This document shows, piece after piece, positions 9,887 through 53,120 of a stretch of DNA of 64,000 nt. The DNA is from Bacteroides reticulotermitis JCM 10512. Its GTDB lineage: Bacteria; Bacteroidota; Bacteroidia; Bacteroidales; Bacteroidaceae. A program made the translations under genes and the position numbers. Under the pieces are notes generated by a model that worked only from the letters and a program-made list of their open reading frames with translations, did not search any database and had not been told where the DNA came from. How positions within the stretch are numbered: position 1 is the stretch's first letter; every line of letters starts with the position of its first letter. The stretch lies in the NCBI RefSeq assembly GCF_000517545.1, contig NZ_BAIV01000015.1, positions 1-64,000 on the forward strand, written 5' to 3'.

Positions 9887-11337
9887 ATGAATAATACAAT
9901 AAATGAAGGAAGTAAACTTTATTTGTATTCTATAACCTCCATCGCCATCATTGGAGGGTTGCTCTTCGGTTATGATACAGCCGTTATCTCGGGAGCCGAA
10001 AAAGGATTGGAAGCCTTTTTCCTTTCTGCTCCTGACTTTCACTATGATAAAGTAATGCATGGAATTACTTCATCCAGCGCTTTGATTGGATGTATTATCG
10101 GTGGGTCGATATCCGGAATATTAGCTTCTCGTCTGGGACGCCGGAACTCGTTACGTGTTGCCGCCATCTTGTTCTTCTTATCCGCTTTAGGTTCTTACCA
10201 TCCTGAATTCTTATTCTTTGAATACGGACAGCCAAGCATGAACTTACTGATCGCATTCAACTTGTATCGCATATTGGGTGGTATAGGTGTTGGATTGGCG
10301 TCGGCGGTATGTCCTATGTATATTGCGGAGATAGCTCCCTCGAGAATTCGCGGAACGTTGGTTTCGTGCAACCAGTTCGCCATTATCTTTGGTATGTTGG
10401 TTGTTTATTTCGTGAACTTTATGATTTTAGGTGATCACCAAAATCCGCTTCTGCTGAAAGATGCTGCCGGACTCTATACGGTAAGCCCTGAATCCGATAT
10501 GTGGACCATACATGAAGGTTGGAGATACATGTTCCTTTCGGCTGCTATACCAGCGGCTGCCTTTGGATTCCTGCTCTTCTTCGTGCCTAAAACACCACGT
10601 TATCTGGTGATGATTCAACAGGAAGACAAAGCGCTTTCTATCTTAGAGAAGATCAACGGACGCGCTAAAGCGATTGAAATTCTGGGTGAGATTAAAGCAA
10701 CTGCTCATGAAAAACAGAGAAGATCTTTACGTATGGAGTGGCTGTAATCGTAATCGGTATTCTATTGTCCGTATTCCAACAGGCAATCGGTATCAACGCC
10801 GTATTATATTACGCTCCTCGTATTTTTGAAAATGCCGGTGCTGAAGGTGGTGGAATGATGCAAACCGTAATTATGGGTGTGGTAAACATCGCCTTTACAT
10901 TGGTTGCTATATTTACAGTCGATAAGTTTGGACGTAAACCGTTGTTGATTATCGGTTCTATCGGTATGGCTGTAGGTGCTTTCTCGGTTGCTTTCTGCGA
11001 CAGCATGGGCATCAAGGGGCTTTTGCCGGTATTGTCTATTATCGTATACGCTGCCTTCTTCATGATGTCATGGGGACCTATCTGCTGGGTATTGATCTCG
11101 GAGATATTCCCTAATACGATCCGTGGTAAGGCAATCGCTATCGCTGTAGCTTTCCAGTGGACATTTAACTATATCATTTCCTCTACTTTCCCGGCATTGT
11201 ACGACTTCAGTCCGATGTTCGCTTATAGCTTGTATGGAGTGATCTGTGTAGCTGCCGCCTTGTTTGTATGGCGTTGGGTACCCGAAACAAAAGGTAAAAC
11301 CCTGGAAGAAATGAGTAAACTTTGGAAGAAAGGCTAA
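9887..11337 (+). CDS. xylE: D-xylose:H+ symporter, frameshifted in this sequence
   Basis: A 12-helix sugar-porter MFS protein of about 483 residues, importing xylose with protons across the inner membrane. The frame breaks in the A-run at 10710-10714; one extra A restores EKTEKIFTYGVAVIVIGI and joins the two halves. Family signatures on both sides are intact: GYDTAVISGAE in helix 1, RLGRRNSLR in the loop 2-3 region, DKFGRKPLL in loop 8-9 and the C-terminal PETKGKTLEE. It is the last gene of the operon, followed by a strong hairpin terminator. The break looks like a one-base sequencing deletion. Confidence 0.92.
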
Positions 11338-11387
11338 TTAATTCGATTCGTGTGTTTTATCGTGTCGTTAGGACATGATTTTATCAA

Positions 11388-11430
11388 GATTATGACATCA
11401 TATCATTGATATGATGTCATAATCACTTTT
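11388..11430 (+). terminator. Terminator of the xylose operon
   Basis: A near-perfect 17-18-bp inverted repeat: the left arm begins GATTATGACATCATATCA at 11388 and the right arm ends at 11424, with almost no loop. ACTTTTTGG follows. It lies between the convergent xylE and HU-like genes. Confidence 0.75.
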
Positions 11431-11467
11431 TGGCGTATCTTGCAGTGAACCAGACATTTATTTTGCG

Positions 11468-12088
11468 TCAACTATTTCGGGATACTCCAAACCAACCTGG
11501 TATGGGAAAATAAAAAGGAGAGTGGGTATATCCCGGATGAGATAATTTTCCTTCGACTACCCGTTCCTTTAATCTGCGAAGCGCAGTGCTCTTTCTTAGC
11601 CCACACAATGAGCAGAGTCGAGATGTCGTTATATACGAGTTGTCTTTGAAATACTCGGCTAATTGTCCGTCAATCTCTATGTCGCTTAATTCCTGCGACC
11701 GGCTCGTCTTGCTTACTTTCTCAAAAGTCGTAGCTTTCAATTCACGCAGTAAATCCTTGGACGGCGTAAAAACGATTCCGCTGCAATGGATGCTTTCAGC
11801 ACGCATCTCTTTAGGAGAGCGTACTTCCGGAGATTCGGCTTTGATTCGGAATGAACCGACTCCTTCAATGTGAATGCTTTTTCCATTGGATAATTCTTGT
11901 TTGAAAACATCGGCGAATTCAATAAAAGATCCCTTAACATCACTTTGTCTGAGGCTACTTCTAGACTCAATAATTTTAGCTACATCTTCTAATGTAATAG
12001 TTTCTCTAACCACCAACCGCGCGTGATACCTTTTCTTATGTGAATCTTTGGGTTGAGGAGTAACGAAGAAATCATAAAGTGCATTCAT
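11468..12088 (-). CDS. HU-like DNA-binding protein with C-terminal helical domain
   Basis: A 206-residue protein. Residues 1-125 match the Bacteroidales HU/IHF-like domain: helical VVRETITLEDVAKIIESRSSL, then the arm region SIHIEGVGSFRIKAESPEVRS with GSFRI in the position of the HU GFGTF motif. The remainder, around SYITTSRLCSLCGLRKSTALRRLKER, looks like a winged-helix or helix-turn-helix. It is much longer than the 90-residue housekeeping HU and so probably sequence-specific or element-associated. It is divergent from the VapE-like gene, with the 23-bp palindromic repeat array in the shared intergenic region, which makes it a candidate binder of those repeats. That link is inference. Confidence 0.7.
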   Translation of the reverse strand: MNALYDFFVTPQPKDSHKKRYHARLVVRETITLEDVAKIIESRSSLRQSDVKGSFIEFADVFKQELSNGKSIHIEGVGSFRIKAESPEVRSPKEMRAESIHCSGIVFTPSKDLLRELKATTFEKVSKTSRSQELSDIEIDGQLAEYFKDNSYITTSRLCSLCGLRKSTALRRLKERVVEGKLSHPGYTHSPFYFPIPGWFGVSRNS

Positions 12089-12164
12089 GTTAATTGTATT
12101 GTGCGCACCAGTTAGCAGATTTGCGCGGTCGTTTTATTTGTTTGTGCCTTCTTATTAGTTGGCT

Positions 12165-12260
12165 CACATTATGTGCAACAGTTAACTCATATGTTGTGAA
12201 ACGCGCGTCCCACATAATGTGGAACAGCTGTTTCACAATATGTGCTACAGCTAATATGTG
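12165..12260. repeat. Array of 23-bp palindromic tandem repeats (copy 1)
   Basis: Four near-palindromic 11-mers start exactly 23 bases apart: CACATTATGTG (12165), CATATGTTGTG (12188), CACATAATGTG (12211) and CACAATATGTG (12234), with a degenerate fifth near 12253. The 12-base spacers are also related (RAACAGnnGTnn) and hold a second dyad, AACAGCTGTT at 12223-12232. The array lies between the divergent HU-like and VapE-like genes. A second array of the same design is at 52483-52570. It resembles iterons or an operator array. It is not CRISPR, since the spacers are conserved. Confidence 0.85.
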
Positions 12261-12346
12261 AGTCAAAATTACTAATTATTCTAATAAAAAGCAATACTAG
12301 AATCGTTTATTTCGGCTAGTTAAGATTTTTTTAAATTACGATCCGA

Positions 12347-12383
12347 TATATTTGCAAATCAGTGTTTCAGTACTATACTTTTG
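12347..12383 (+). promoter_or_regulatory. Promoter(s) of the VapE-like gene
   Basis: TACTTTTG at 12376-12383 is a -7 box with TTTG at 12351-12354 as the -33, spaced 21 bases. The same TTTG is the end of a second -7 match, TATATTTG (12347-12354). The start codon follows 35 bases after the second box. Confidence 0.6.
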
Positions 12384-12418
12384 AACCTAAATTCTCATAA
12401 TAACTAAAAAAAAGAAGT

Positions 12419-13762
12419 ATGAAAACAATGATTATGAAAGTAGTAGAAACACTAAAGAAGTTGTTTGTACAAACACAAATGTCGGTTGAAACAGTAGAAC
12501 ATGAAGTAGAAGTAGGGTTGGAGGGCCGTATTATGCAACCTATGCTATTGAAAGAGCCGCAAAAGGGGGTAAAAATGAAGTTGGTTAAGGAGAAGCCTGA
12601 AAAAGTCGGTACGGCTAAGAGTTGGAGTCAGGCAATAACTTTACAGTTAGGGAAGTATCTGAAGGACAATTTTGTATTCCGCTACAATAGCCTGACGGGT
12701 GCTACGGAATATAGAGGGATTCATGCTACGAACAGTTTTCGTGCCATCGATGATCGTGAAATGAATGGTATTATCGTCGATGCGCATTTAGAAGGGATAT
12801 CCTGTTGGAAAAACGATGTACCTACTTTGGTCTTATCCAATAAAGTCAGCGCATATAACCCTTTTCATCTCTATGTGAATGAATTGCCGCGCTGGGATGG
12901 AGTAGACCGTGTGACTTCTTTATTGCTGCGGGTTTCCAATAATGAAATCTGGTTGAAAGGTGGGCGTTACTGGTTGCGGGCCATGTTGTCTCAATGGAGT
13001 GGGGAGGCTCGTTTGCACGCTAATGTGCTAACTCCGGTATTGATAAGTGGCAAACAAGGATTGAGTAAAAGTACCTTTTGCCGGTTGTTAATGCCGGATT
13101 CACTCCGATGTTATTTTCTGGACAATTTAAATCTGTCAGCCGGCACTTCGCCCGAGCGGAAACTTGTGAAGTACGGGTTAATCAACTTGGATGAATTTGA
13201 CAAAATTAAGGAAAAACAACAAGCTACCCTAAAGAATCTGCTGCAAATGGTTAATGTGCCGGTTTATCATGGGAGACGGCTGGGGTGGGAAAATGAGTCT
13301 CGGCTGGCTTCTTTTATAGCTACTACAAATTCGTATCAGATACTGACCGATCCCACGGGAAGTCGTCGTTTTCTGTGTGTGGAAGTACTGAAACCCATTT
13401 CCGAACAGCCTTTAGTGCATAAACAGATTTACGCGCAATTGAAGGCTGAACTTGAATCCGGACAACCGGACTATTTGAATCAGGAGGAAGAAGCGTTGTT
13501 GCAGCAGCAGAACAAAGCCTATTATCGCCAGTCTCCGTTGGAGGATGTGTTTTATAGTTGTTTCCGCCGTCCGCGGGAATCGGAGAAAGGTATTTGGCTG
13601 ACGGCTGCGGAAATATTTAAAGTCTTGCATAGGTTTAACTCTGCTGCTTTGCGGGATATGTCTACGCATCAGCTAAGTTTGCGACTTTGCGCAATGGGAT
13701 TCTTACCGAAACATTCATCGTATGGGAATCGGTATTATGTGCTGAATATTTTACTCTCTTAA
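12419..13762 (+). CDS. VapE/DUF3874-type P-loop ATPase (primase/helicase-like)
   Basis: A 447-residue protein of the virulence-associated E superfamily, an SF3-helicase-like ATPase common in phages and mobile elements of Bacteroides. Visible motifs: YVNELPRWDGVDRV near residue 155 (typical VapE entry), the Walker A ISGKQGLSKSTF near 205, a Walker B-like NLDEFDKIKEKQQ near 258, and a sensor/arginine-finger segment FIATTNSYQILTDPTGSRR near 300. The C-terminal 80 residues fit the DUF3874 helical tail. No primase domain is present upstream of residue 140. No integrase or other phage gene surrounds it, so it may be an isolated element remnant or a domesticated gene. Its promoter sits beside the 23-bp repeat array. 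Confidence 0.8.
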   Translation: MKTMIMKVVETLKKLFVQTQMSVETVEHEVEVGLEGRIMQPMLLKEPQKGVKMKLVKEKPEKVGTAKSWSQAITLQLGKYLKDNFVFRYNSLTGATEYRGIHATNSFRAIDDREMNGIIVDAHLEGISCWKNDVPTLVLSNKVSAYNPFHLYVNELPRWDGVDRVTSLLLRVSNNEIWLKGGRYWLRAMLSQWSGEARLHANVLTPVLISGKQGLSKSTFCRLLMPDSLRCYFLDNLNLSAGTSPERKLVKYGLINLDEFDKIKEKQQATLKNLLQMVNVPVYHGRRLGWENESRLASFIATTNSYQILTDPTGSRRFLCVEVLKPISEQPLVHKQIYAQLKAELESGQPDYLNQEEEALLQQQNKAYYRQSPLEDVFYSCFRRPRESEKGIWLTAAEIFKVLHRFNSAALRDMSTHQLSLRLCAMGFLPKHSSYGNRYYVLNILLS

Positions 13763-14145
13763 AAGATGCCGCATTGTATCGTATTGTATGTTAGATCGTT
13801 ACGGCAAAAAGTGATTTACATATGAAACCGTTGTACTTTTGTTTACGTGGGCAAATATTGATATTTGTATATAATTTATTAAATTTGCCAAAGCGGAAAG
13901 TAATCCTTGGGGACTCTCCTTAATATATAAGGTAGGAAACAATTCAATATTAAATTTTGTTTCTGGTGGAGGAGATAAGTAAATATCATATACGCTATGC
14001 AAAATGGTACAGTTACAAATGGAATGATTGTCCTGTCAGAAATAAAGTTGCATTTAAATATCCATTAAAAAAATGTGCGTTGTTGTATCATTAATCAAAT
14101 TAGCGATACCTTTGCACTGTCTTTAATATAAAAACATATATTGTC
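13763..14145. other. Intergenic stretch without a supported gene
   Basis: This 383-base AT-rich gap holds a -7-like TACTTTTG at 13834-13841 and two very short open frames (33 and 23 codons from 13822 and 13997) with no recognisable features. The only well-supported element is the promoter of the next gene at its right end. Confidence 0.5.
14083..14114 (+). promoter_or_regulatory. Promoter of the GNAT-nitrilase fusion gene
   Basis: TACCTTTG (14107-14114) with TTG at 14083-14085 about 21 bases upstream, 32 bases before the start codon. Confidence 0.65.
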
Positions 14146-15683
14146 ATGGAACAGCATCCGATAATCATCAATAAGCTGCAAATTCGAAATCTACAAATAG
14201 AAGACTATGCTCAGTTATCTCAATCATTTACCCGTGTCTATTCGGATGGGAGCGATGTGTTCTGGACCCATAAGCAGATCGAGACATTAATTAAGATTTT
14301 CCCCGAAGGCAGATTGTGACAGAAGTCGATGATAAAATAGTCGGATGTGCCCTGTCTATCATCGTGGATTATGATAAGGTGAAGAATGATCATACCTACG
14401 CTCAGGTAACAGGTAAAGAAACGTTCAATACGCATAATCCGAAAGGGAATATACTCTATGGTATCGAAGTGTTTATTCATCCGGAGTTTCGCGGACTGCG
14501 TTTGGCGCGCCGTATGTATGAGTACCGAAAGGAACTTTGCGAAACGCTAAACCTGAAATCGATCATGTTTGGTGGCCGTATTCCGAATTATCATAAATAC
14601 GCGGAAAAGATGCGCCCGAAAGAATACATTGAGCGGGTACGTCAACGAGAGATTTATGATCCGGTACTTACGTTTCAGCTTTCCAACGACTTCCATGTGC
14701 GCAAAGTGATGACGAATTATTTGCCGAATGATGAGGAGTCCAAACACTATGCTTGTCTGCTGCAATGGGATAATATCTACTACCAAGCACCTACTCAAGA
14801 ATTTATAAATCCTAAAACGACTGTTCGTGTCGGTCTGGTTCAATGGCAGATGCGTAGTTATAAAACGCTGGACGACTTGTTTGAGCAAGTCGAATTCTTT
14901 GTCGATGCTGTGTCAGACTACAAAAGTGACTTTGTGATTTTCCCCGAATACTTCAATGCTCCTCTGATGTCGAAGTATAACAATAAGGGAGAATCTCAGG
15001 CTATTCGCGGACTGGCACAGTACACTGATGAGATTCGTAATCGCTTTATCAATCTGGCCGTTAGCTATAATATAAATATCATCGCAGGAAGTATGCCTTA
15101 CGTGAAAGAAGACGGCTTGCTGTATAACGTTGGCTTCCTTTGCCGCCGGGATGGTACACATGAAATGTACGAGAAGCTACACGTCACGCCGGATGAAATT
15201 AAGAGTTGGGGCTTGAATGGAGGTAAATTCCTGAAAACATTTGATACCGACTGCGCGAAAATCGGTGTGTTGATCTGTTATGATATTGAGTTTCCTGAGT
15301 TATCCCGTTTGATGGCGGATGAAGGTATGCAGATTCTCTTTGTGCCATTTGTGACGGATACGCAGAATGCCTACTCACGTGTACGTGTTTGTGCACAGGC
15401 TCGTGCCATCGAAAACGAATGTTACGTTGTTATCGCCGGTTGTGTGGGCAACTTGCCTCGGGTGCATAACATGGATATTCAGTATGCGCAATCGGCTGTA
15501 TTTACTCCCTGTGACTTTGCTTTCCCAACTGATGGAAAGCGGGCAGAAGCGACTCCTAATACCGAAATGATTCTGGTCTCCGATGTCGATCTGGATCTCT
15601 TAAACGCACTTCATACGTATGGTAGTGTGCGCAACCTGAAAGATCGAAGAAACGATATTTATGAGCTAAAGCTGAAGAAATAG
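14146..15683 (+). CDS. GNAT acetyltransferase-carbon-nitrogen hydrolase fusion, frameshifted
   Basis: About 512 residues after joining the frames from the ATG at 14146 across a one-base loss near 14308 (FPEGQIVTEVDDKIVGCAL is restored). The N-terminal 200 residues are a GNAT fold with the acetyl-CoA loop region HPEFRGLRLARRMYEYR. The C-terminal 280 residues are a nitrilase-superfamily amidase with the Glu-Lys-Cys triad: FVIFPEYFN, YEKLHVTPDE and VLICYDIEFPELSRL. Such fusions are widespread in Bacteroidota; the substrate is not known to me, so the function stays at amide hydrolysis plus acyl transfer. It is a single-gene unit between the VapE-like gene and ileS. Confidence 0.85.
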
Positions 15684-16022: not shown

Positions 16023-19000
16023 ATGAGTAAGAGGTTTACTGAATATTCGCAGTTTGACCTTTCACAGGTAAACAAGGATGTATTGAAGAAATGGGACGAA
16101 AACGAGGTTTTCGCCAAGAGTATGACAGAACGTGATGGCTGTCCTTCGTACGTGTTTTATGAAGGCCCGCCTCGGCAAATGGTATGCCGGGTATTCACCA
16201 TGTAATGGCTCGTTCCATTAAAGATATTTTTTGCCGCTACAAGACAATGAAAGGTTTTCAGGTAAAGCGTAAAGCCGGATGGGATACGCACGGACTACCT
16301 GTGGAATTGGGCGTTGAAAAAACACTGGGTATTACAAAAGAAGATATTGGAAAGAAAATTTCGGTTGCCGAATATAATGCAGCTTGTCGGAAAGACGTGA
16401 TGAAGTTTACCAAAGAATGGGAAGACCTCACACATAAGATGGGCTATTGGGTAGACATGACCGATCCTTATATCACCTACGATAATCGCTATATTGAGAC
16501 TCTGTGGTGGTTGCTTAAACAAATGCATCAAAAGGATTTGCTATACAAGGGATATACGATCCAACCCTATTCTCCGGCAGCGGGAACCGGACTTAGCTCA
16601 CATGAGCTGAATCAACCGGGATGCTATCGGGATGTTAAAGACACAACGGTTGTTGCCCAGTTTAAGATCAAAGATCCTAAACCGGAATTGACAGCGTGGG
16701 GCACGCCTTACTTTATGGCGTGGACAACAACCCCGTGGACATTGCCCTCGAATACCGCTCTTTGTGTCGGTCCTAAAATAGATTATATAGCCGTACAATC
16801 GTACAACGCATATACAGGCGCCCCGATAACTGTGGTGCTAGCTAAAGCTTTGCTTCATGCGCACTTCAATCCGAAAGCTGCTGAATTGAATTTGGAGGAT
16901 TACAAACAGGGTGATAAACTCATTCCGTATAAAGTAATCGCCGAATATAAAGGAGCGGACTTGGTTGGTCTCGGATATGAGCAACTGATTCCTTGGGTAA
17001 ATCCGGGAGAAGGTGCATTCCGTGTTATCTCTGGTGACTTTGTAACGACAGAAGATGGTACGGGTATCGTACACATTGCGCCGACCTTCGGAGCAGATGA
17101 TGCGCAGGTGGCTAAAGCTGCCGGTGTGCCTCCTTTGCAACTGATAAATAAGAAGGGCGAATTGCGTCCGATGGTAGACCTTACCGGTAAATTCTATACT
17201 TTAGATGAACTGGATGAAACCTTTGTAAAAGAGCGTGTTAACGTAGAATTTTATAGAGAATATGCCGGACGTTTTGTTAAGAACGACTACGACCCGACTT
17301 TGACAGATAAAGACGAAACGCTGGATGTAAGCCTTTGCATGATGATGAAGGCCAACAACCAGGCTTTCAAGATCGAGAAGCATGTGCACAACTATCCGCA
17401 CTGCTGGCGTACAGACAAACCGGTACTTTATTATCCGTTGGATAGCTGGTTTATCCGTTCCACAGCCTGTAAAGAGCGGATGATTGAACTGAATAAAACC
17501 ATTAACTGGAAGCCGGAATCAACCGGAACAGGTCGTTTTGGTAAATGGTTGGAAAACCTGAATGACTGGAACCTAAGCCGTTCACGTTATTGGGGAACTC
17601 CGTTGCCTATCTGGCGTACGGAGGACAACAGTGAGGAGATCTGTATCGAATCGGTTGAAGAACTTTATAATGAGATAGAGAAGTCGGTTGCTGCCGGCTT
17701 GATGGAATCGAATCCGTATAAAAAGAATGGTTTTAAACCGGGTGTCTATTCACCGGAGAACTACGATAAGATAGATCTTCATCGTCCGTACGTTGATGAT
17801 ATTATCCTGGTTTCCAAAGAGGGACAGCCAATGAAGCGCGAGGCAGACCTGATCGATGTTTGGTTTGATTCGGGAGCGATGCCGTATGCCCAAATCCATT
17901 ATCCGTTCGAGAATAAAGAACTGTTGGATAGCGGAGAGGTATACCCGGCTGATTTTATCGCCGAAGGAGTTGACCAGACACGTGATGGTTCTTTACGTTG
18001 CACGCCATTGCCACTATGGTATTCGATAGCGTGTCTTATAAAGCAGTTATATCCAATGGATTGGTGCTTGATAAGAATGGAAATAAAATGTCGAAACGTT
18101 TGGGTAATGGAGTGGATCCGTTCCAAGCAATCGAGAAATATGGTTCGGACCCATTGCGTTGGTATATGATAACCAACTCTTCTCCATGGGATAACCTGAA
18201 GTTTGATGTTGAAGGCATCGAAGAGGTACGCCGTAAGTTCTTCGGAACATTATATAATACGTACTCATTCTTTGCGCTTTATGCAAACGTGGATGGATTT
18301 GAATACAAGGAAGCAGATGTTGCCGTTGCCGATCGTCCGGAAATTGACCGGTGGGTTTTGTCGGTGCTCAACACACTGATTAAAGAGGTAGATACTTGTT
18401 ACAACGATTATGAGCCGACAAAAGCAGGACGCTTGATCTCTGATTTTGTGAACGATAACCTGTCTAACTGGTTCGTACGCTTAAATCGTAAACGTTTCTG
18501 GGGTGGCGAATTCACGCAAGATAAACTATCTGCTTACCAAACGCTTTATACTTGCCTTGAAACAGTGGCTAAACTGATGGCACCGATTTCGCCGTTCTAC
18601 GCCGATCGTTTATATACCGACTTGATTGGTGTAACCGGTCGCGAAGATAGGGTTTCTGTGCATCTGGCTAAATTCCCTATTTGTTGTGAAGAGATGATCG
18701 ACAAGGAGCTGGAAGTACGTATGAAGATGGCTCAGGATGTAACTTCTATGGTATTGGCATTGCGTCGTAAAGTGAACATCAAGGTTCGCCAGCCGCTGCA
18801 ATGTATCATGATTCCCGTAGTGACGAAGAGCAAAAAGCACACGTTGAAGCTGTGAAAGCGTTGATCATGAATGAAGTCAACATCAAGGAAATCAAATTTG
18901 TGGACGGAGCGAACGGTGTATTGGTGAAGAAGGTGAAATGTGACTTTAAGAAGCTAGGGCCTAAGTTCGGAAAACAGATGAAAGCGGTAGCTGCTGCTGT

Positions 19001-19445
19001 ATCCGAAATGTCACAGGAAGCGATTGCCGATTTGGAAAAAAATGGAAAGTATCCGCTGAATCTTGCCGATGGAGAAGTAACAATCGAAGCGGCGGATGTT
19101 GAAATATATAGCGAAGATATTCCGGGATGGCTGGTAGCTAACGAAGGTAAACTTACTGTTGCACTTGAAGTGACGGTAACGGATGAACTTCGCCGGGAAG
19201 GTATTGCCCGTGAACTGGTTAATCGAATCCAAAATATACGCAAGTCAAGTGGTTTTGAAATAACTGATAAAATAAAAATCACTATTTCCAAAAATCTTCA
19301 AACGGATGATGCGGTAAAGGAATATAAAACGTATATTTGTAGCCAAGTTCTTGCTACATCTCTTGATTTTACCGATGAAGTAGAAGAAGGAACCGAATTG
19401 AACTTTGATGATTTCTCTTTATTCGTGAGTGTAGTAAAAAACTAA
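16023..19445 (+). CDS. ileS: Isoleucyl-tRNA synthetase, type 2, three frameshifts in this sequence
   Basis: Charges tRNA-Ile. Joining four frames gives about 1141 residues, the length of the eukaryote-like type 2 IleRS. One base is missing near 16172 (PPSANGMPG restored), near 17983 (QTRGWFFTLHAIA restored) and near 18817 (IPVSDEEQKAHVEA restored). The class I signature reads GIHH at 16190-16201 (residues about 57-60) where canonical enzymes have HIGH. The second signature is KMSKR, as expected for type 2. The editing and anticodon domains follow, with a C-terminal extension. Three independent breaks in an essential single-copy gene argue for sequencing error. It probably starts a run with the DksA-like gene and lspA. 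Confidence 0.93.
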
Positions 19446-30256: not shown

Positions 30257-30329
30257 GCACTCTTAGCTCAGTTGGTAGAGCAACTGACTCTTAATCAGTG
30301 GGTCCAGGGTTCGAATCCCTGAGGGTGTA
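30257..30329 (+). tRNA. tRNA-Lys (CTT)
   Basis: Cloverleaf of 73 bases: acceptor GCACTCT/AGGGTGT with G-T closing pair, D arm GCTC/GAGC, anticodon stem ACTGA/TCAGT with loop CTCTTAA giving anticodon CTT, T arm CAGGG-TTCGAAT-CCCTG, discriminator A. CCA is not encoded. First of two identical copies. Confidence 0.95.
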
Positions 30330-30357
30330 CTTCTGGTTTGCAAAATTAATACATGTT

Positions 30358-30430
30358 GCACTCTTAGCTCAGTTGGTAGAGCAACTGACTCTTAATCAGT
30401 GGGTCCAGGGTTCGAATCCCTGAGGGTGTA
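30358..30430 (+). tRNA. tRNA-Lys (CTT), second copy
   Basis: Identical to the copy at 30257-30329, 28 bases downstream of it and very probably on the same transcript. Anticodon loop CTCTTAA, discriminator A. Confidence 0.95.
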
Positions 30431-51600: not shown

Positions 51601-51674
51601 CGGGATGTAGCGCAGTCCGGTAGCGCACCTGTTTTGGGAACAGGGGGTCCCAGGTTCGAATCCTGGTATCCCGA
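51601..51674 (+). tRNA. tRNA-Pro (TGG)
   Basis: 74-base cloverleaf: acceptor CGGGATG/TATCCCG with a C1-G72 pair, anticodon stem CCTGT/ACAGG, loop TTTGGGA giving anticodon TGG, T arm CCAGG-TTCGAAT-CCTGG, discriminator A. CCA is not encoded. First of two identical copies. Confidence 0.95.
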
Positions 51675-51713
51675 CTACAAAGAGAAAAGGAAGGTTCTAA
51701 GAATGAGGCATTT

Positions 51714-51787
51714 CGGGATGTAGCGCAGTCCGGTAGCGCACCTGTTTTGGGAACAGGGGGTCCCAGGTTCGAATCCTGGTATCCCGA
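51714..51787 (+). tRNA. tRNA-Pro (TGG), second copy
   Basis: Identical to the copy at 51601-51674, 39 bases downstream and on the same apparent transcript. Confidence 0.95.
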
Positions 51788-51958: not shown

Positions 51959-52230
51959 ATGATTTTGAACGTTATTAGAAAATACAAAGGCTTCCCAGGC
52001 CTTACTTCTAAAGAGAAACGTTATGTCTGCGGAGAAATCATAAGTGAAAGTTTAAAAAAGAGAAAGGTGATATTTCATATCACGATCAGGTGACGAATAT
52101 ATCTTATAAAGATAATAAGGATCACCTGCAAAAGTATGGGGCTATATATAGCTCTTCGTTAATCTATGCAAGAATAAGAAAAAGTTCATTACTTCCCTTG
52201 ACTCAAATCGGCCTAAATCGAGAGGGATAG
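51959..52230 (+). pseudogene. Possible small gene of about 90 residues with one frameshift
   Basis: An ATG at 51959 opens a frame with MILNVIRKYKGFPGLTSKEK near the start, which stops early near 52092. One added base near 52080 extends it to about 90 residues through HDQVTNISYKDNKDHLQKYG and QIGLNREG to a TAG at 52228-52230. The repair needed is the same one-base deletion seen in established genes nearby. There is no signal peptide or known domain. It is AT-rich, lies in a gene-poor region, and could equally be non-coding. I do not recognise it. Confidence 0.3.
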
Positions 52231-52482
52231 CCTGTATCTATAAACTAATCAACTAGCAAAACATGCAATTTAAGCGAGTAACAGAATGTAAAAACACATC
52301 TGATCACAATCACATTTTTCCATAAACGACTGATTGATAATTTGATATATTGCGTGTTCTCTGCGGGTGCTGATCTATTCAATACATATTACCAATTTTC
52401 AAAGGCCGTGTACTTGGCTAAAACCCCTTGATAGATAGTAGTAAATAGCTAGTAAAAGGTATTTTTGCCCATTATATTTCCT

Positions 52483-52570
52483 GTTCCACAACTGTGGAAC
52501 AGGCGACTCACATATTGTGAAACAAGTGTCGCACATAATGTGGAACAGCCGTCGCACAATATGTGAAACA
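52483..52570. repeat. Array of 23-bp palindromic tandem repeats (copy 2)
   Basis: CACATATTGTG (52509), CACATAATGTG (52532) and CACAATATGTG (52555) begin exactly 23 bases apart; a fourth dyad, GTTCCACA-AC-TGTGGAAC, lies at 52483-52500 in near phase (22 bases). The spacers (RAACARnnGTCG) are conserved. It shares the run CACATAATGTGGAACAG with the array at 12165-12260, 40 kb away. No recognised gene stands next to it. Confidence 0.85.
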
Positions 52571-53120
52571 GGAAATAGAAGGAAATAAACATAAAGAAAG
52601 ATTGCTTAAATCCACGAATAGTTGCGCACGATACGGTTCAAGAAAGGATTTATTTGGTAAATTTATTACTCTGTTTTCTGAGAAAATAAGCAATAGTTAT
52701 TGCTCATCGGAATAAAATGATCGAAAAAAAGAAGACTCATTGCAATCAATTGATATACTGAATGATATGCAAAAAAGTGACAATGACATGAGAGTGTTGT
52801 ATCATTGTACAAAATGCCTATATCAGCCCACCTTATGCTTTTGCAAGTAATCCGTTTTTCCTTCGTTTTTGGAAATGATACCGGCTGTTTCATTTGTTTC
52901 ATCACGGTGAGAATTTTTTCTCCTACTTGAGAGAAAAAAGTTTCGTCTCGATGAGAAAAGAGTTTATGCCTAAGTAACAAAAGTTTCATGAGGACAAAAC
53001 GGTTGAAACAACTGAAGATTCGTTTGGAGTTACAATTCACTCCTTTGGATTTTAGCTTATAATGCTACATAATGGCTTAGATTAAACTCGTTTTGTATAA
53101 CGGAGCTTTCCAAATGGCTC
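52571..53120. other. AT-rich region without a supported gene
   Basis: The longest open frame (minus, 52666-53040, 124 codons with a GTG start) has no signal peptide, no known domain and an unusual composition rich in Phe, His and Lys. The part around 52870-52990 has repeated short motifs (GTTTCATC, GTTTCGTC, GAGAAAA). It may be a decayed element or a conserved non-coding region. Confidence 0.4.

Follow-up and report, generated by a model that had tools for sequence, protein, structure and literature searches.

A dyad array at two-turn spacing beside an HU-HIG gene of Bacteroides reticulotermitis: a probable operator also carried by transposon-like repeats

The autoregulated operator arrays of repressors and centromere-binding proteins consist of dyads placed at helical spacing beside the protein's own gene and promoter, and the specificity of such arrays differs between paralogues. 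In the iteron origins of plasmids and SaPI-type islands, a helicase-like gene has several direct repeats of about 22 bp close by. HU-like proteins are usually regarded as having little preference for particular DNA sequences. Operator arrays, iterons, and MITEs have all been described, and the nearest design to the one presented here is the BrickBuilt MITE of Porphyromonas gingivalis, a species of the same taxonomic order, with tandem 23-nt units and small inverted-repeat ends (PMC4596501). BrickBuilt is reported to be present in 19 intergenic copies in one strain and to show promoter activity in both directions.

Compared to BrickBuilt, the array described here has a different unit and different ends. 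By inspection, the BrickBuilt unit (AGAYCATARTATCCTCTCRTRTG; PMC4596501) is unrelated to the CACATAATGTGGAACAGCTGTCG-like unit found in the window, the stretch of 64,000 nucleotides of the B. reticulotermitis genome that was analyzed. BrickBuilt ends are of 12 nt and resemble those of IS5-family ISPg elements, whereas the dispersed copies described below have 24-bp ends; no link to an HU-like protein was found in the part of the BrickBuilt report available (PMC4596501). Compared to the operator arrays of repressors and centromere-binding proteins, the protein concerned here has an HU fold with a predicted C-terminal wHTH, and its binding to the array is proposed from sequence. Compared to iteron origins, the arrays lie on the HU-HIG promoter and occur also without a nearby VapE gene. 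A habit of upstream dyad arrays in the HU-HIG family was not found in the literature covered, from which most subscription journals were missing.

Two genes diverge from the array, as a first-pass annotation of the window had correctly noted. The HU-like gene (11468–12088, minus strand) encodes a protein of 206 aa that matches the HU-HIG family PF18291 with an E value of 3.9e-30 and 104.9 bits, against a curated cut-off of 26.2. The protein is composed of an HU domain and a helical C-terminal part, a predicted wHTH, in which three helices are placed at residues 136–178 by a low-confidence model (mean pLDDT only 50.9); a C-terminal wHTH is one of the types within the HU-HIG family. A sequence search found no solved structure related to this protein. 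The other gene (12419–13762, plus strand) encodes a VapE-like ATPase of 447 aa with DUF3874 that matches phage helicase/primase families and the solved chain 7pds, "Similar to D. nodosus vapE". It resembles a helicase with a solved relative, and a role at a replication origin is possible, although disfavored by the evidence weighed below. A function in anti-phage defense was considered for the two proteins and rejected, as neither had a PADLOC match at E 0.1. An unstranded, terminator-like inverted repeat lies 3′ of the HU gene (11388–11424), and the adjoining CAAAAAGTGATTATGACAT recurs in altered form in both arms of the dispersed repeats; the motif AAAAAGTGAT located 3′ of VapE (13806–13815, plus strand) matches their left arm. 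Two reading frames in the neighborhood are split. The frame of a xylE-like sugar transporter (9887–11337) is divided into overlapping ORFs at 9887–10747 and 10738–11337, through a frameshift or a sequencing error, and that of an apparent isoleucyl-tRNA synthetase (16184–19445) is divided into three overlapping ORFs, where sequencing errors are likely because the gene is essential.

The array itself (12165–12244, unstranded) contains four 11-bp dyads at a period of 23 bp: CACATTATGTG at 12165, CATATGTTGTG at 12188, CACATAATGTG at 12211, and CACAATATGTG at 12234. Its likeness to related arrays continues to about 12256. The first-pass annotation had described four near-palindromic 11-mers spaced 23 bases apart, and the spacing is indeed exactly 23 bp at every step, but the palindromy is uneven: dyads 1 and 3 are perfect, dyad 4 is nearly so (4 of 5 pairs), and dyad 2 is weak (3 of 5 pairs). 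At period 23, the dyad score is 17 of 20 pairs. Shuffling the 330-bp intergenic region 2000 times never gave that score (null maximum 16), and this is the top-scoring place for period-23 dyads across the 64-kb window. As a plain direct repeat the array is weaker, its period score of 19 being equal to the best of 60 shuffles. The 12-bp spacers (CAACAGTTAACT, AAACGCGCGTCC, GAACAGCTGTTT, and CTACAGCTAATA), previously thought to be conserved and to hold a second dyad, are only loosely alike, and that second dyad, AACAGCTGTT, is complete in just one of them. A CRISPR array was excluded by the layout, as the period is 23 bp throughout and the spacer shares in the unit's dyads. A further array at 52477–52582 in the same window had been missed.

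The array follows the likely promoter of the HU-HIG gene. The octamer TAATTTTG (12264–12271, minus strand) is present in eight of the nine related loci and fits TAnnTTTG, the −7 consensus given for Bacteroides in a promoter study (PMC7366714). A second motif of B. thetaiotaomicron from that study, PM2, with boxes near −10 and −30, was also considered. Reading towards HU, this box stands 11 bp ahead of the start of the periodic stretch, so that the array would cover the HU transcript start. The leader between the array and the HU start codon (12089–12164, minus strand) is alike between species and is common to the right arm of the dispersed repeats. On the VapE side, the likely −7 box, TACTTTTG (12376–12383, plus strand), is about 120 bp from the array, and a second candidate, TATATTTG, is found at 12347. 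The earlier suggestion that the HU-like protein, the repeats, and the ATPase may form one small unit was borne out only in part by these positions, with the array on the HU promoter and the likely VapE promoter at a distance.

A protein scan of the genome collection gave nine related HU loci, with HU identities of 80–85% and one of 73%. The array is alignable upstream of HU in all nine, with 15–17 of 20 dyad pairs each and steps of 23 bp. Some dyads have decayed: dyad 2 is weak in L046–L049, three recognizable dyads are retained in L050, and in L047, in which dyads 2 and 3 are weak, the period score of 10 falls inside that of its own shuffles (maximum 12). VapE stands divergent beside the array in the window and in eight of the nine relatives, and the neighbor xylE is common to three of the nine (3-kb flanks). 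Repeated dyads therefore lie at the HU-HIG gene's own promoter and have been kept in evolution, which is the layout of an operator array. The proposed link between the repeats and the HU-like gene stood up well, since the pattern also recurs at other HU-HIG genes. The role of VapE as a partner of the repeats stood up only in part, since VapE is a frequent neighbor in the relatives yet has no match within about 3 kb of four own-genome loci with an array at HU-HIG (L062, L063, L068, and L069). At L206, an HU-HIG gene also has an array with no VapE match within 4 kb.

B. reticulotermitis has another HU-HIG/VapE pair, whose array (L060:2874–2947) is unrelated in sequence (CAGCCAAC) and has a period of 22; compared to the window pair, its HU is 28% and its VapE 44% identical. 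Two surveys extended this comparison, with a period score of 15 as the threshold for an array. One covered the upstream regions of 40 VapE relatives from the genus, 37 of the short and three of the long type; an HU-HIG gene was present in 22 of the 40 and in none of the three long-type regions, and 19 of 23 VapE-linked HU-HIG loci, L060 included, reached the threshold. In the other survey, HU-HIG genes were picked by Pfam rather than by array, from four genomes, and comprised 40 of 60 PF18291 matches, the remainder including classical HUs and fragments. An array was scored at 27 of these 40 genes and at two of 52 control ORF upstreams, all controls being from the B. reticulotermitis genome, and the figure of 27 is generous because distant arrays and simple repeats are counted in. 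Thirteen of the 40 are without an array at this threshold, and 20 pass both the period and the dyad tests. Five of these 20 (L175, L178, L195, L196, and L197) lie at least 500 bp away from the gene end of the upstream stretch. Simple or coding repeats make up some of the hits, and L173, L189, and L192, which pass on period alone, have a simple-repeat appearance. In genome G061, two different HU-HIG genes (L196 and L197) share an array of AGGTCCGACCT type, in each case over 500 bp upstream.

The B. reticulotermitis genome has 22 PF18291 matches, some of them classical HUs or fragments. Among ten own-genome HU-HIG paralogues, a set that leaves out the window gene and L060 and includes one fragment (L055), five reach the threshold. 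A rank test of the 40 Pfam-picked and ten own-genome genes against the controls gave p = 3.5e-14. At classical HU loci (L218–L239), two of 22 were at threshold, with the orientation of these loci unconfirmed. ORFs of at least 195 aa had an array in 14 of 17 cases and shorter ones in 13 of 23 (p = 0.10). In the 32 scoring arrays (27 + 5), the lag is 22 in 18, 23 in six, 21 in four, and 20 or 24 in four. A spacing near two helical turns is thus shared, at 21–23 bp in 28 of the 32; the first-pass annotation had named a freely varying period and an absent gene link as grounds for abandoning its reading, and the opposite was found on both counts.

Further properties were drawn from 54 scoring arrays, consisting of those from both surveys, the own-genome paralogues, the window, and L050, together with L083 and L084, which had been found by their arrays. 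The unit number is mostly three or four. Despite unrelated units, dyad symmetry exceeds that of column shuffles (p ≤ 0.05) in 39 of the 54. An exact TAnnTTTG occurs within 60 bp ahead of 28 of the arrays, compared to 11 of 265 control windows, and is absent ahead of the other 26; the gap from box to array has a mode of 16 bp and is 11–27 bp in 25 of the 28. Among 34 arrays, array similarity tracks HU identity (Mantel rho 0.50, p = 0.001), with a mean of 0.55 above 80% HU identity, 0.20 at 60–80%, and 0.12 below 30%; below 45% identity, rho is only 0.20. Shared ancestry by itself could explain this co-divergence of array and protein sequences.

The window intergenic region also matches many places in its own genome. 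With a whole copy as query, at least 40 distinct sites were found, at least 37 of them with the array; 40 of 84 candidate sites were scored, and the site count is therefore a lower bound. The copies are noncoding and about 0.8 kb long, the two-ended ones being 726–827 bp. One of them is in the window (52119–52853, plus strand, 735 bp), with end repeats matching at 23/24 and 18/24 positions and the array at 52477–52582. The ends are inverted repeats of 24 bp (GGATCACYTGCAAAAGTATGGGGA), a pattern present at 34 sites in the genome against none for a reversed control pattern; 17 or more of the 24 positions matched at 37 of 70 copy ends. The borders are sharp, with an identity of 0.76 inside and 0.29 just outside, and 8-bp target duplications (8/8, 8/8, and 7/8) accompany three of ten two-ended copies and are not visible in the other seven. 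In their sharp-bordered terminal inverted repeats and target-site duplication, the dispersed copies are MITE-like. The end reads outward as TACTTTTG, and an outward promoter was considered in its place; a transposon end is preferred because of the sharp borders and the target duplications. Stop-to-stop frames in the consensus reach 76 aa at most, and no transposase was noticed at the array-less sites with the same ends that were inspected. Of 35 aligned copies, none falls within a long ORF, and in three a mechanical ORF of at least 120 aa reaches into or lies in the copy; the neighboring genes are convergent in 11 and divergent in three.

These copies are deletion derivatives of a VapE–array–HU segment, as shown by matches to the array, the leader, and remnants of both genes. 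Aligned to the repeat consensus, the HU locus gives three matches: the array with the leader (E 5e-21), 50 bp within the HU coding sequence, and the HU 3′ flank (E 8e-7 for each of the last two). HU protein remnants are found in the copies (E 8e-6 in L012), and matches to the VapE C-terminus, singly weak (best E 0.022), recur at one place. The array is better conserved in the copies (0.85) than the two arms (0.75 and 0.77; p = 2e-6 and 4e-5). The window HU/VapE locus itself has no transposon ends, the best matches within 11000–14600 being 14 and 13 of 24. The suggestion that the locus is a remnant mobile element thus has to be roughly inverted: at least 37 array-bearing, transposon-like derivatives of the locus stand elsewhere in the genome.

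The transposon ends occur in number in B. reticulotermitis alone among 41 genomes, with three matches in G003 and one weak match in G007. For L011, matches to the sequences that flank its copy are separated by 148 bp in G074 and by 160 bp in G012, where the corresponding B. reticulotermitis distances are 1686 and 1699 bp (826 bp being the element and part of the rest another repeat). In G001 and G046 the separation is 12.9 and 3.9 kb, leaving two of the four relatives informative. For the copy at 52119–52853, the flanking genes are 15–18 kb apart in G001, G012, and G046, and G074 reaches a contig end. Tandem pairs of identical-scoring tRNA genes lie at 30257–30430 and 51601–51787 of the window, and the latter ends about 330 bp from this copy, where gene order is broken in relatives. 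A fragment with one such transposon end (L055:2880–3350) comes from another HU-HIG locus, L065 (76% over 415 bp), and carries that locus's own array, ACTATAGT; judged by reading frame, it appears to interrupt what looks to be a helix-turn-helix gene. Because L055 derives from a different HU-HIG locus, the transposon would have taken up HU-HIG promoter–array segments at least twice.

Collectively, these results suggest that the array probably serves as operator of the HU-HIG gene beside it and was later spread by a MITE-like element with 24-bp ends. HU-HIG dimers would bind the dyads, and the two-turn spacing would place them on nearly the same face of the DNA; because the period stays near 22 bp although the units differ, the DNA helix and protein–protein contact are the likely constraints. 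The HU domain would bend the DNA, and the bound set, covering the HU transcript start, would repress the gene's own expression, as the position of the array just past the −7 box suggests. Each HU-HIG paralogue would have its own palindrome and thereby its own address. The transposon may have captured the VapE–array–HU segment, shed most of the coding sequence, and multiplied, giving about 37 extra intergenic copies of the address. These are possible further sites for the same HU-HIG protein, which may then act at many places.

The array could instead be an iteron-type replication origin of a small replicon or satellite module, marked by HU-HIG and opened by the VapE-like ATPase. The helicase-type matches of VapE, the recurrence of divergent HU-HIG/VapE pairs with arrays (also in Parabacteroides distasonis, with a VapE in broken frames), and the retention of the array by noncoding derivatives would all fit such an origin. 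We nevertheless consider it unlikely, since arrays stand at the HU-HIG genes that have no VapE nearby, the array hugs the HU promoter rather than that of VapE, and the pairs stand among ordinary chromosomal genes. Somewhat less likely again is that the array acts as RNA, with hairpins of the HU leader controlling translation or stability or binding the protein. The arrays do fall in the likely 5′ leader, and for six of nine the folding is stronger than that of shuffles (z −3.7 to −10.3), but palindromic DNA folds as RNA regardless, and a fixed 22-bp period across unrelated units is unnecessary for an RNA. Furthermore, four tRNAs are the sole Rfam matches in the 64-kb window, and z is −0.30, −1.8, and −1.9 in L060, L106, and L117; RNA alone fits less well because the folding of L060 is near chance.

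Two other explanations concern the scattered copies. In one, HU-HIG would mark many sites for chromosome organization or partition, in the manner of partition and macrodomain-protein arrays, and the 38 array sites in a genome of 5.4 Mb (the copy count being a lower bound) and the conservation of the array above the arms speak for it. We regard it as improbable, given that among 80 genus genomes the many copies of this array are confined to B. reticulotermitis, the four genomes with strong hits having one or two each, and that copy placement resembles transposon insertion. The last, in which a mobile element would have generated the repeats as a mere by-product and they would do nothing for the HU gene, accords with the scattered transposon-like copies. 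It is highly improbable, since the HU array can be aligned in species where, among those searched, no such element was seen, and since unrelated arrays stand at other HU-HIG genes. The reading as an operator that was subsequently scattered remains the preferred one.

With the array model, matches at E 1e-3 were obtained in 18 of the 80 genus genomes searched. The strong ones outside B. reticulotermitis are in G001, G012, G046, and G074 and lie beside the HU orthologue; there are one or two per genome, G001 having one besides that at the HU gene. Used blindly, the array-only model found three distant HU-HIG genes, in three of 13 genomes with weak matches only. Several dispersed arrays with other palindromes are present in each of G060, G067, G019, and G061, and in G060 (three of five places) and G067 (three of four) they are inside shared blocks of about 460–570 bp. 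The dispersed repeats of about 0.5 kb at L139–L143 in G060 and at L144–L145, L076, and L093 in G067 carry the palindrome arrays TCCCACATATTGTGGGA and GTCCCACTATAGTGGGAC. No HU-HIG gene with a palindrome matching the dispersed arrays of these four genomes was found among the 40 upstreams examined there (of 60 PF18291 matches), which argues against a simple rule of one protein and one network, unless the gene was lost or lay outside these 40.

A wider proposal, which we offer tentatively and consider doubtful as a whole, is that HU-HIG constitutes a large family of self-addressed nucleoid proteins, with their own palindromes at two-turn spacing past the promoter. New paralogues would acquire new addresses, and transposons would repeatedly pick up and scatter promoter–array segments, producing a network of sites that spans the chromosome and serves a single HU-like protein. 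Repeated pick-up by transposons is suggested by the two HU-HIG loci involved here and by dispersed repeats that bear arrays of different palindromes in two further genomes. If gene-specific dyad arrays at fixed helical spacing are what they seem, they would mean HU proteins that are addressed by sequence and have ready-made targets, and suggest a DNA target for an expanded and little-studied gene family of Bacteroides. The dispersed copies show a way for transposons to spread an operator through a genome.

The pattern is also found outside the immediate relatives. All three HU-HIG loci fetched from B. finegoldii have an array. Beyond the genus, 20 upstreams from five families were collected, and four of the 19 readable ones have an array; L256, which scored but contains masked bases, is excluded. 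In Parabacteroides distasonis (L204), an HU-HIG array lies beside rpsL, and the adjoining VapE (L204:2561–4010) is split between two frames and goes unlisted in the gene table of the record. A fecal contig has an HU-HIG array, and L207 is below threshold. The source records of L204, L205, and L206 are filed as plasmids yet carry chromosome-type genes, namely mutL, rpsL, and fusA (NZ_OY725757.1), transketolase, and topoisomerase IV, and they look like chromosome fragments closed as circles.
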